DNA of 47,601 nucleotides, taken from Martelella mediterranea (GTDB lineage: Bacteria; Pseudomonadota; Alphaproteobacteria; Rhizobiales; Rhizobiaceae). Both the position numbers and the translations under genes were made by a program. Positions 33,427-41,051 of this stretch are shown piece after piece. The stretch is from positions 1 to 47,601 of the forward strand of contig NZ_JAINWJ010000056.1 of the NCBI RefSeq assembly GCF_021021415.1, read 5' to 3'. The first letter of the stretch is position 1; every line of letters begins with the position of its first letter. A model generated the notes under the pieces. That model was not told the origin of the DNA. It saw nothing but the letters and a program-made list of their open reading frames with translations, and did not search any database.

Positions 33427-37641
<4,215 letters not shown>

Positions 37642-37666
37642 GCCTACTATAGCTCGATAGATATTC

Positions 37667-37698
37667 GACCGCCGGCAGTGATGCCGGCGGTCTTTTTT
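37667..37698 (+). terminator. Intrinsic terminator after rpoC
   Basis: GACCGCCGGCA pairs perfectly with TGCCGGCGGTC (11 bp) around a GTGA loop and is followed by six T. A diverged copy of this hairpin occurs at 38262-38296. Confidence 0.92.
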
Positions 37699-37910
37699 GT
37701 TTTCGAAAGGTTTGCCGCGTTCAGTCGGGTTCCCTCGGCGTACCGTCCATTTCCGAGGCGATTGTTTCGGCAGCCCTTTACCAATGTCAGTATAGGCGAC
37801 AATAACGAGATTATTGCAACCTATGGTAGAAGTGTTTAGTGTTTTATCAGGCAGGAAGGGGTGCTCTCTGTCTGTGAAATAACATTGAACCGCGCCCATG
37901 GAGAAATCTA

Positions 37911-38198
37911 ATGTCGTCAAACATTCTTAGCATCGCAGCGCCTGTAATAACCGGCTACTCAGATGGTGTCTTCACTGGGACCGAGGCTACGGCCGATACC
38001 ATCGTCATGGTCTACACTACAAGCACGGGGCAGACGGTGTCGCAAAAGTGGGCCATTGTTGTTGATGGACAATGGAGCCTGACTGCCGACCTTCCGCCCG
38101 TAGTTGGGAGCAACTGCTACGCGATTGCTACCCTGTTAACGGCTGGCTCGCTAAGCCCGACATCTCAACCCTCGAATCCTTACCCGGTAGGATCGTAA
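37911..38198 (+). CDS. Small Ig-like domain protein of unknown function
   Basis: A 95-residue protein with no signal peptide or membrane helix. Its pattern (APVITGYSDGVFTGTEATAD, IVMVYTTSTGQTV, VDGQWSLTADLPP, YAIATLLTAGSLSP) resembles one repeat of bacterial Ig-like adhesin domains, in which strands end in DG.WSL and A.AT. Here it stands alone. GGAG lies 9 bases before the ATG and is kept in the downstream copy. GC is visibly lower than in rpoC, suggesting foreign origin. A broken paralogue lies at 38510-38799. I infer the fold from pattern only; the function is unknown. It starts 213 bp after the rpoC terminator. Confidence 0.6.
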   Translation: MSSNILSIAAPVITGYSDGVFTGTEATADTIVMVYTTSTGQTVSQKWAIVVDGQWSLTADLPPVVGSNCYAIATLLTAGSLSPTSQPSNPYPVGS

Positions 38199-38261
38199 AT
38201 CCGCAGTTGATTGAGATGATCTGCTGCATCTGGGTGAACGGGATTTCTGCGTCGTGAACGC

Positions 38262-38296
38262 AAGGCCGTCGGTGGCAATGCCGGCGGCCTTGTTGT
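38262..38296 (+). terminator. Diverged copy of the rpoC terminator
   Basis: AAGGCCGTCGG (38262-38272) pairs with CCGGCGGCCTT (38281-38291) over 11 bp with one T-G wobble, loop TGGCAATG, then TGTTGTTT. Compared with the rpoC terminator, several changes fall on both sides of the stem so that pairing is kept, and T-richness follows. It may still terminate. Confidence 0.6.
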
Positions 38297-38509
38297 TTCT
38301 TGAAGGTGTGCGACGTTCCGTCTGGGTTCTATCGGTGTGTCATCCCTTTCCAAGGCGAGTGTTTCGACAGCCTTTCACGAAGGGCAGTACGGTCAACTAT
38401 AAGGAAAGGTTTTGCAATTATGGGTTGTGTTTAGTGGTTTTCAAAGAGGCAGGACAGGGCGTTCGCTGCCTGCAAAACTACGTGGAAACCACGCTCATGG
38501 AGAGATCCA

Positions 38510-38799
38510 ATGTCGTCAAAGACTCCTCACGTGGCACCTCCTGTTATAACCGGCTATTCGGATGATGTCTTTTTGGGACCGAGGCTACGGCCGATACCAC
38601 TGTCATGGTCTACAATAGAAACAAAGGTTCTGAAGTATCAATGAAGTCGGCAATTGTTGTTGATGGGCAGTGGAGCCTGGTCGCCGACGATCCGCCAGCT
38701 GTGGGAAACACTTGCTCCGCGATTGCTACCAAGATATTGGATGGCCCGCAGCCAGGCCCGGTGTCTTAACCCTCACAGCCTTACCTGGTAGGATCGTAA
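38510..38799 (+). pseudogene. Broken copy of the small Ig-like protein gene
   Basis: It aligns end to end with the gene at 37911-38198. It begins MSSKTPHVAPPVITGYSDDV in one frame. A one-base loss in the TTTTT run (about 38570-38574) shifts the frame. In the shifted frame the homology resumes as EATADTTVMVY and IVVDGQWSLVADDPPAVG. A CAA-to-TAA change at 38767-38769 then stops it, after which PSQPYLVGS and the original TAA (38797-38799) are still recognisable. One extra codon near the 3' end explains the two-base difference in length. Its ribosome site (GGAG) is still present. Confidence 0.85.
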
Positions 38800-39081
38800 C
38801 TCGCGGCCGATTGCGTCGAACTCGCCGAAGCTGGATGAGTAGGCACTTGCGGAGTTGACAGAAAGGAGGCCCTGTGTGGGAGCAGCGGGCCTTTCTGCGT
38901 TCCGTACCTTCGCTTCGGCTTTCCGCGCTGGACCATTTTTGGGTCCAACTGAAATATCATTAGCCAAATCAAAGGCAGACGCACACACTGAGGTGGTTGC
39001 GGGGTGAGCGGCGATCAGGGGTTTCCTGCCTTTGCTTCGCACGGAAGAATGGAACGCTTCGTGCGTTCTGATAACAAAGTC
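38800..39081. other. Gap between the broken Ig-like gene and the rpoC remnant
   Basis: No gene is seen. It contains one terminator-like hairpin (38860-38896) and otherwise lower-GC sequence without recognisable content. A minus-strand open frame here has no ribosome site and no family look. Confidence 0.4.
38860..38896 (+). terminator. Possible terminator after the broken Ig-like gene
   Basis: AGGCCC (38867-38872) pairs with GGGCCT (38887-38892), or AGAAAGG (38860-38866) with CCTTTCT (38890-38896), with CTTTCT on the 3' side. The two pairings compete. It is a weak to moderate candidate. Confidence 0.4.
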
Positions 39082-39237
39082 GGGACGGGGCGCCAGGTTC
39101 ATGAGGTGGATGGTCGTCGCGGCGCGGCCCGCGACGACCTCATCATCGACGCCCGCCGCGAGGCTTTCCGCGCCGGCGAGGCGGCCCCGATGGTCTCCGC
39201 GATGAACCCGGAAAGTGAGCCGCAGCCGGGCGAGCAG
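39082..39237 (+). pseudogene. Decayed second copy of the 3' end of rpoC
   Basis: Bases 39127-39237 align without gaps to 37531-37641, the last 37 codons of rpoC including the stop; by hand count 97 of 111 bases match, and 29 of 36 residues ([20 protein letters not shown] against [20 protein letters not shown], then [13 protein letters not shown] identical). Weaker similarity reaches back to about 39082. The rpoC stop TAA has become CAG, so the open frame runs on to 39306 into unrelated residues. Only about three of the changes before the stop are silent, so the copy is not under protein-level selection. An ATG-started frame from 39004 covers it, but I do not consider that a working gene. Confidence 0.88.
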
Positions 39238-39318
39238 GCTTCGGACTTCCGCCCGACCGTCTTCAAGCTTTTGTGTAAGAGGCTACCGACTTTTGGCGGT
39301 CTTTAACATTTACTGCTA

Positions 39319-39338
39319 AAATGCTAGCGATAGCATTT
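39319..39338 (+). promoter_or_regulatory. Perfect palindrome upstream of the EAL gene
   Basis: AAATGCTA and TAGCATTT form an 8-bp perfect dyad around GCGA, about 120 bp before the EAL gene. It is AT-rich with no U-run, so an operator for a dimeric regulator is at least as likely as an RNA hairpin. Confidence 0.4.
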
Positions 39339-39458
39339 GCTGGTTACGCGGTCTTGTCGTCGACGGTCGATCTGGGAGGGATCGTCGGGGCGATTTGCGC
39401 TTCAAAGGGGCAGACCTGACGGGTCCCCTCATTAGCGCGGCGGCGGAAAGGAAGCGCT

Positions 39459-41051
39459 ATGGAGGCGGGTAGACGGAGTATCTGGATCATCTGTCTTGTC
39501 TGGGTCTTTCTGGGCGGGATATGTTCGCTGGTGATCGCCGAGTTCATCCGCAACCATAACGCCGACGAGTATGTCGACTATTACGGTTCCGATGTCTTTC
39601 AAAACGCGGTCTCCGTCGCCGAAACAAGCCTGACGGTATTGCGCACCCTCGATCGATCTGACAACGCGCCCTGTTCACCGGAGGACCTGGAGGCGATGCG
39701 CGGCGTCGTGTTCGCCGCTCCGTATCTTACCGATGTCGGTCGCTTGCGGGACGGGTACCTGATCTGCACCGGCATATGGGGCGAACTGGCAATGCCGGTG
39801 AAGATGCCGTCGCGTTCCCAGGTCGTGGGCGTTAACGGGGCCACGCTCTGGAAGGGCACAAGAGGCATCGCGCCGGCTGGGCTTGCGGCCGACATGGCGT
39901 CGTTTGGCAACAGCGTGGTGATGACGGCGCCGTCCGCCTTCGCGCGCTACGAAGACCCCGCCGAGCGCCTGGCCGCCCTGGTGCTGACCAGCGACGCCAG
40001 CTACAGCTATCAATCCTTCGGCGATACCGAAGGGCTCGCGCCTTTGCTCGGAAGCAACAGTGATTGGTATCGCATTGCGAAGCGCAGGGTCTATTCGCGC
40101 TGCAATGACAAGACCGATGTCTGCGTCGTCGCCACCTATGACGCGCCCGCCCTTTTGAAGACGGCGCCGCTTGATTTCCTGCTTGTCCTGGCCGGCGGTG
40201 TTTCTGCCGGCGCGTGCCTCGGGCTCTGGCATGCCCATCTCTATCGTGAAGGCCGGTCCTGGCGGCAGAAGCTGGAGCGGGCGCTGAACGACGATCGACT
40301 GACGGCGCATTATCAGCCGATCGTCAGTCTTTCCGACAATAGAATATGCGGGGCGGAGGCCCTTGCGCGGCTGGTCGATTTCGACGGGACGTTGATTCCG
40401 CCCGATCATTTCATTCCCGCGGCGGAGACCTGCGGTTTCATCGGGCGGATCACCCGCAGCGTCGTCAGGCGGGCATTCACGGACATGGCGGCGCATTTTG
40501 CGGCCGATCCGAATTTCTATGTCAGCATCAATGTTGCCTCCGAGGACATACTGAGCCTGGAGTTTCTGGATTTTCTCGAGACCGAAACCCGGACCCACGG
40601 GCTTTCCGCCGGTCAGGTCGCGCTGGAGCTGACGGAGCGTTCGACGGCGAGCGAGGACAGCCTGACCCAGGCGATGGCGGCTTTCAGCAGACGCGGCTAT
40701 CGCATCCTCATCGACGATTTCGGCACCGGCTATTCGAACCTCGCCTATATCGCCCGCATGCCGATCGCGGGCATCAAGATCGACCGGATGTTCACCCAGG
40801 CGCTCGATCAGCAGGCGATCGGCGCGGTGATCGTCAGCAAGGTCTGTGAACTTGCCGCCGCGCTCGAGGTGACCCTGATCTGCGAGGGGGTGGAAACCAA
40901 AGGCCAGGCCGACCATCTCGTCGCCATCTATCCCGACATCTGCATTCAAGGGTTCCTGATCAGCCGGCCAATGCCCGCCCGACAGTTCTCGCGCGCCTTT
41001 CCTGCCAACCATCATGCATGGACGCCATCGCCGAGCGAGAGCGCCGGCTGA
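39459..41051 (+). CDS. c-di-GMP phosphodiesterase with CSS-like sensor and EAL domain
   Basis: A 530-residue inner-membrane enzyme. TM1 (about 8-27) and TM2 (about 235-258) enclose a periplasmic sensor with cysteines at C72 and C103 and two more near the end (SRCNDKTDVCVV), resembling the CSS-motif domain that senses redox state; here the motif reads CSP rather than CSS. The EAL domain (about 272-520) keeps E300-A-L, VSINVA, LELTER, IDDFGTGYSNL, GIKIDR and CEGVET, the residues needed for metal binding and catalysis, so it should hydrolyse c-di-GMP to pGpG. A weak GGAAAGGAAG site precedes the ATG. No GGDEF domain is present. Confidence 0.9.
   Translation: MEAGRRSIWIICLVWVFLGGICSLVIAEFIRNHNADEYVDYYGSDVFQNAVSVAETSLTVLRTLDRSDNAPCSPEDLEAMRGVVFAAPYLTDVGRLRDGYLICTGIWGELAMPVKMPSRSQVVGVNGATLWKGTRGIAPAGLAADMASFGNSVVMTAPSAFARYEDPAERLAALVLTSDASYSYQSFGDTEGLAPLLGSNSDWYRIAKRRVYSRCNDKTDVCVVATYDAPALLKTAPLDFLLVLAGGVSAGACLGLWHAHLYREGRSWRQKLERALNDDRLTAHYQPIVSLSDNRICGAEALARLVDFDGTLIPPDHFIPAAETCGFIGRITRSVVRRAFTDMAAHFAADPNFYVSINVASEDILSLEFLDFLETETRTHGLSAGQVALELTERSTASEDSLTQAMAAFSRRGYRILIDDFGTGYSNLAYIARMPIAGIKIDRMFTQALDQQAIGAVIVSKVCELAAALEVTLICEGVETKGQADHLVAIYPDICIQGFLISRPMPARQFSRAFPANHHAWTPSPSESAG

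Follow-up and report, generated by a model that had tools for sequence, protein, structure and literature searches.

Directly behind rpoC of Martelella mediterranea, a small unit consisting of a leader, an ORF for one Ig-like domain and a tail occurs twice in tandem, and each occurrence is preceded by a terminator. We analysed a window of 47,601 nucleotides, meaning the whole stretch of DNA that was available, and the features discussed here are collected in Table 1. The arrangement is probably the outcome of ordinary tandem duplication and subsequent decay in a genus-restricted family of lone-Ig genes, which perhaps encode attachment proteins.

Table 1. Positions of features in and around the duplicated unit behind rpoC (numbering of the window)
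Feature	Position	Strand	Basis
Working rpoC 3′ end	37515-37641	+	rpoC ORF 33427-37641; 87% identical to the relic
Terminator hairpin 1 (belonging to rpoC); position 37669 in its stem is the first of the duplicated unit	37667-37692	+	Fold and terminator scan
Leader of copy 1	37669-37910	+	Alignment with leader 2
Leader core ACGAGATTATTGCAAC, with TTGCAA at 37814-37819	37805-37820	+	Common to lone-Ig genes of the other locus
Copy 1, open ORF of 95 aa, single Ig-like domain	37911-38198	+	GGAG ahead of ATG, by eye
Terminator hairpin 2 (follows copy 1; duplicate of hairpin 1)	38260-38293	+	Repeat family D6; fold z -4.7; terminator scan
Leader of copy 2, with TTGCAA at 38412-38417	38266-38509	+	Alignment
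Copy 2, broken Ig-like ORF	38510-38799	+	Deletion near 38573; TAA at 38767-38769
Hairpin 3 behind copy 2, no obvious copy of hairpins 1 and 2	38866-38898	+	Fold
Non-coding stretch common with G007 (128 of 144 compared bases identical)	38927-39080		Comparison with G007
rpoC 3′-end relic, best-conserved part 39114-39233	39079-39234	+	Protein match; also in G007
Decayed rpoC-type terminator behind the relic	39280-39304	+	Aligned with rpoC terminators of G005, G010, G009 and G004
CSS-motif/EAL protein gene, cargo of the block	39459-41051	+	Pfam EAL 2.3e-57, CSS-motif 5e-25

When 37000-39600 was compared with itself by blastn with the low-complexity filter off, 37669-38237 matched 38266-38838 with 73.1% of 580 aligned bases identical (E 1e-98). 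The match was single and continuous, taking in the greater part of the terminator stem, about 240 bp of leader, the full ORF and the tail, and the repeat families D2-D6 found by a repeat search of the window had spacings of 597-601. This bore out a tandem duplication of terminator, leader and small Ig-like ORF, as claimed in an earlier note made from the letters of the DNA, and the similarity was not confined to short low-complexity stretches. Base-level alignment determined 73 differences in 241 compared bases between the two leaders (30%) and 69 in 286 between the two ORFs (24%), with likeness extending about 40 bp beyond the stop codon; the units are adjacent direct copies that have leader, ORF and tail in common, as tandem duplication produces. 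The same alignment agreed with the note that copy 1 is open, with its 95 codons intact, and that copy 2 carries one frameshift and a CAA-to-TAA change: one base is deleted opposite 37974 (about 38573), and the TAA stands against CAA at 38166-38168 of copy 1. By eye, the spacing from TTGCAA to TAGTG was also shorter in the leader of copy 2 than in that of copy 1.

Each unit starts inside a terminator hairpin, and these two hairpins themselves are the only inverted pair that bounds a unit (I2, 26 nt, 77%). The segment around hairpin 1 (37655-37705) folds at -26.4 kcal/mol (z -6.2) and was listed by the terminator scan; the segment around hairpin 3 (38850-38905) folds at -25.4 kcal/mol (z -2.8) and was absent from the scan list. 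A search of 36500-40500 against Rfam was negative up to E 1. A terminator ahead of each copy and behind copy 1 would be expected because the unit was duplicated together with the terminator upstream of it. We therefore favor a history in which the small unit lay between rpoC and an older block, described below, and was doubled once in tandem along with the preceding terminator. Copy 2 would then have decayed through the frameshift, the stop and the shortened TTGCAA-TAGTG spacing, with copy 1 staying open, and the location behind rpoC would contribute nothing more than insulation by a strong terminator. Ordinary bacterial tandem duplication with decay likewise leaves adjacent direct copies, one of them decaying; what differs here is that the unit brings along the terminator of the upstream gene, which may insulate both copies.

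Copy 1 is Ig-like by kinship. It resembled five domains of the C49 Ig-repeat proteins encoded in the same genome at 34-42% identity and E 5e-5 to 2e-11 (best 42%, 1.8e-11), and a sixth C49 domain at 30% (E 0.002). Pfam Big_6 (PF17936) scored above the cut-off in five of the six scanned C49 proteins, whereas copy 1 itself had no Pfam match with an E value of 1 or lower and so stayed below the cut-off of the Big_6 model; the E values against the C49 domains and profile A1 nevertheless place it with the Big_6 type, in keeping with the note, which had called the ORF Ig-like. PHROGs gave no match for copy 1, NCBIfam gave one chance match (E 0.21), and profile A1 found nothing in the PDB at E 0.1. 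A single-sequence model of copy 1 had six strands, with a poor pLDDT of 44.6. The C49 genes, whose cluster adjoins an autotransporter gene, resemble the window units in lying side by side, but their products have 607-821 aa, except one of 244 aa, and copy 1 is a single domain. Six proteins of the Ig-repeat type are encoded in L009 (2308-15259) and L131 (9116-15505) with an autotransporter gene adjoining, and three proteins from this region have a C-terminal motif like PFNRQxEGY.

Relatives of copy 1 were confined to a narrow range. Searched as a single sequence at E 0.001, it had a match in 3 of 13 genomes of the genus and in 1 of 247 genomes of the family, the latter being its own. Profile A1, which consists of 11 rows after the twelfth, L014, was dropped, matched in 4 of the 13 genus genomes (E 0.01) and in 7 of 297 family genomes (E 0.001), and the matches outside the genus lay within large open frames of at least 728 codons. 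Among the named sequence collections, which may lack records closely similar to the window's genome, neither 50,697 phage records nor 72,556 plasmid records contained a match to the ORF, and none of the 39 pattern stretches in viral contigs and 212 in genome_contigs was confirmed. At the DNA level, comparing the units with the C49 cluster and with the further loci included gave E 0.013 at best. A match in C34 of the same genome (E 0.11) was dismissed as chance on reading of the stretch; the one in C85 (E 0.02) was a lone-Ig gene at a second locus.

Profile A2 detected lone-Ig ORFs of 106-111 aa at this second locus in 3 of the 13 genomes, one in the window's genome and two each in G006 and G012; G004 had a weak match only, inside a large frame (E 0.006). 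All five ORFs are open and lie 5′ of a gene for an ABC ATPase. The top NCBIfam model for this neighbor was an ECF-type ATPase, below its cut-off, in the two of three species that were scanned. The second-locus genes resemble copy 1 in having one Ig-like domain, in forming tandem pairs in two species and in carrying the TTGCAA leader core in three of five cases; they differ from it in protein sequence (31% identity in the row compared) and in their separate tree branch, and blastn gave no match better than E 0.35 between the window units and the second locus. A small tree of the proteins joined the five ORFs of the second locus in one group (0.974), left the G006 pair unresolved (0.359) and placed copy 1 apart from them with a C49 domain (0.758). 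Because of this last grouping, the lone-Ig genes may have two separate origins.

The G012 pair (L082, 4767-6035) is 87% identical over 567 bp, and a 146-bp piece between its copies is 80% identical to the interior of the neighboring ABC gene; the G006 pair is 65% identical over 354 bp. The G012 duplication postdates the split from the window's genome, since dS is 0.07 within the pair and 0.35 for the ABC gene between the species. Doubling in tandem thus struck lone-Ig units at two loci, independently for rpoC and G012 at least, and the second-locus pairs in two species point to a birth-and-death turnover of small lone-Ig genes by ordinary tandem duplication. The earlier note knew of no described element that behaves like this at the rpoC 3′ end. 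Tandem copying with a fragment of a neighboring gene occurs at the second locus as well; therefore, rpoC itself is not special. Literature searches found no work on tandem duplication of Ig-like domains in Rhizobiaceae and, among the matches listed, nothing fitting on insertions downstream of rpoC.

Synonymous and non-synonymous differences were then compared by the Nei-Gojobori method. Between copies 1 and 2 of the window, pS was 0.333 and pN 0.207 (p 0.05); the two wrong frames gave pS/pN of 0.154/0.256 and 0.290/0.210, so that one of them likewise had pS above pN and the signal of constraint is weak for copy 1. In the absence of constraint, copy 1 would have remained open with a chance of 0.02-0.13, according to a rough simulation under assumed rates. 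Given these three results, copy 1 itself may be decaying too. At the second locus, dS exceeded dN with p < 0.02 in 6 of 10 pairs, all six of which involve G006 and some of which are saturated; the G006 pair had dS 0.88 and dN 0.39 (p 0.001), and G006a/G012b gave p 0.14. Between the gene of the window's genome and the two G012 copies, dS (0.46 and 0.44) and dN (0.43) did not differ, compared with dS 0.35 and dN 0.06 for the adjoining ABC gene. In the G012 pair, dS was 0.074 and dN 0.155, which was not significant (p 0.17) and gives positive selection in the lone-Ig pairs no significant support; nor did its ORFs diverge significantly faster than the 3′ flank (39 of 318 versus 13 of 150 bases, p 0.27). 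Overall, the lone-Ig family is coding and constrained, yet fast-evolving. The codon changes of the G012 pair are clustered, which raised the idea of a diversity-generating retroelement; it was set aside as a matter of judgement, since the changes do not centre on a single base.

These data also bear on the alternative that both copies are dead, being remnants of a foreign low-GC insertion in place of the LysE-type gene that G007 has behind rpoC, with copy 1 open by chance. The GC content of the units (0.49-0.55, versus 0.61-0.62 in rpoC and the EAL gene), the absence, at E 0.001, of any ORF relative from the 247 family genomes other than its own and from the named collections, and the weak codon signal together with the neutral survival estimate all fit such remnants. 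Intact in copy 1, however, are the leader core and, by eye, the ribosome-binding site, and the five second-locus relatives are all open, for which reasons we regard the death of both copies as rather unlikely.

The part of the window beyond the pair has another history. Self-blastn aligned the rpoC end (37515-37637) with the relic (39114-39233) at 87%. G007, the nearest of the 12 other genomes of the genus by rpoC (96.3% over 2100 bases), has the same relic and EAL gene, but there rpoC and relic are separated by a LysE-type gene, and the Ig unit is lacking. Downstream of the relic stop, 89 of 108 bases agreed with G005 and 90 of 108 with G010 (82-83%), compared with 33 of 85 (39%) for the window's own rpoC terminator region. 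As G007 shares relic and EAL gene, and the 3′ flank of the relic follows G005 and G010, the relic, the old terminator and the EAL gene form one block, whose joining was an event separate from duplication of the Ig unit. A simple import from a G005-like donor is countered by the coding part of the relic, which is slightly closer to the rpoC of its own genome (122 of 159 bases alike) and of G007 (119 of 156) than to the G005 (111 of 156) or G010 (114 of 156) gene. Either order of events, insertion of the EAL block behind LysE or insertion of an rpoC end with LysE before an ancestral EAL gene, leaves a doubled rpoC end.

The place after rpoC varies by species. Behind rpoC and its terminator, the EAL gene comes first in G004, G005, G009 and G010, and a LysE-type gene (Pfam) in G012 and G006, which had neither relic nor EAL gene in the roughly 8 kb compared; a choloylglycine-hydrolase family gene holds this place in G003 and a MarR family gene in G011. 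The sequence TGGACCATTTTTGGGTCC (38929-38946 of the window) lies ahead of the relic and, in G007, behind LysE, and a similar stretch is found 3′ of the rpoC terminator in G003.

The earlier note had proposed that three linked rounds of local duplication (rpoC end-terminator-ORF; terminator-ORF; rpoC end-terminator), with later losses, built the whole stretch. The relic and the repeats do lie within 1.6 kb of each other, and the affinity of the relic coding part to the rpoC of its own genome and of G007 would suit such a scheme; but the occurrence of relic and EAL gene in G007 without the Ig unit, and a relic 3′ flank that follows G005 and G010 and not its own terminator region, make it very unlikely that the relic belongs to the same series, and this part of the proposal was not supported. 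That a site-specific element uses the rpoC 3′ end as its attachment site, with the relic as the displaced end, is suggested by the rpoC end being repeated on either side of variable cargo (the Ig pair here, the LysE type in G007), but is extremely improbable, since no ORF wholly inside 37642-39458 exceeds 109 aa and there is hence no recombinase gene, the LysE-type gene follows rpoC in G012 and G006 without a relic in the stretch compared, and a second strong match beside rpoC occurred, among the matches listed for 247 family genomes, only in the window's genome. The rpoC end was matched in 142 of these 247 sampled genomes, with up to three candidates scored per genome; G007 was not among the matches listed. 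Pfam showed no recombinase in two of the short ORFs within 37642-39458, and no sign of a mobile element was detected.

Returning to tandem duplication and decay, we compared the age of the pair with that of the species. Between the window's genome and G007, dS was 0.09, 0.14, 0.18 and 0.31 for four genes, and 16 of 144 bases differed in the shared non-coding stretch. The window copies (leader 30%, pS 0.33) have diverged more than the two genomes have at most neutral sites, and by this clock the Ig duplication would be older than the split from G007. The pair was then either lost in G007, or it was doubled before its arrival and took the place of LysE. The low GC of the units fits the latter; no convincing remnant of LysE was detected in the window's genome (best protein E 3.6; at the shared edge, a single DNA match of 18 bases).

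The leaders of the lone-Ig genes have a short motif in common. TTGCAA occurred in 6 of 13 leaders, namely those of both window units, of three of the five second-locus genes and of one of the six C49 genes, compared with 0.04 expected per leader; allowing for the kinship of the copies, these would represent about three independent cases. A longer core, ACRAG-N2..6-TATTGCAAC, which was derived from these same lone-Ig leaders, had two sites in the window's genome, exactly at the two lone-Ig loci, and ten sites in the 13 genomes, four of them lone-Ig leaders, compared with one for the pattern read backwards. The other six sites were in G001, G004, G005, G010 (two) and G012 (one), and none of them had a lone-Ig ORF listed within the following 300 bases. 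A consensus built from the second locus only had one window site within 2 edits, in leader 1; such a site appeared somewhere in 8 of the 100 locally shuffled versions of the window. The bipartite pattern TTGCAA-N6..8-TTGCA occurred at two distinct places in the window's genome, compared with one control match: one is a second-locus leader and the other, by eye, lies beside a gene for a LacI-type regulator. On the + strand, the leaders had no sigma-70-like site in a promoter scan, which gave five such sites in 37600-39500 (0.8 expected), four of them on the - strand of the units. In L129 (G010 C1:2094905), a dyad, TTGCAACTTATGTTGCA, has the same core and no lone-Ig ORF; its neighbors, both named by eye, are a putative secreted-protein gene on one side and a tgt-like gene on the other.

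TTGCAA has been published as the PraR consensus for attachment genes of rhizobia (PMC4149787). The Rap genes of Rhizobium leguminosarum have TTGCAA-bearing, PraR-bound promoters (PMC4149787), and RapA2 is described as an extracellular beta-sheet protein (PMC5061743). With TTGCAA in their leaders, the window units resemble the genes of the Rap proteins (RapA2, RapB, RapC). Rap proteins, however, have Ra/cadherin-like domains and exit by PrsDE, whereas copy 1 has no such domain and no Pfam match of any kind. The window's genome encodes a type I secretion pair of the LssB and HlyD types (L137, G000 C46, 982-4346; TIGR03375 and TIGR01843 above cut-off), and the PrtD model had no match above cut-off in it. 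Because the motif equals the PraR consensus of attachment genes, a role in attachment under a PraR-like repressor is suggested: the product of copy 1 would be a small protein of the cell surface or matrix, expressed from a leader of its own and perhaps controlled by a candidate PraR-like repressor that reads TTGCAA.

A wider idea is that single-Ig proteins were spun off from the large Ig-repeat proteins, settled behind or before housekeeping genes with PraR-type operator leaders, and, repeatedly doubled and fast-diversifying, make up a quorum-sensing-controlled set for attachment or recognition; we hold this to be unlikely. With ordinary duplication and decay as the preferred reading, a seemingly complicated local history reduces to two plain events: an EAL block and a spare rpoC end were joined, and a small gene was duplicated. 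The mechanism is ordinary, and the family is mildly interesting, in that its lone Ig-like genes have been doubled repeatedly in one genus and have a leader motif in common with known rhizobial attachment genes.
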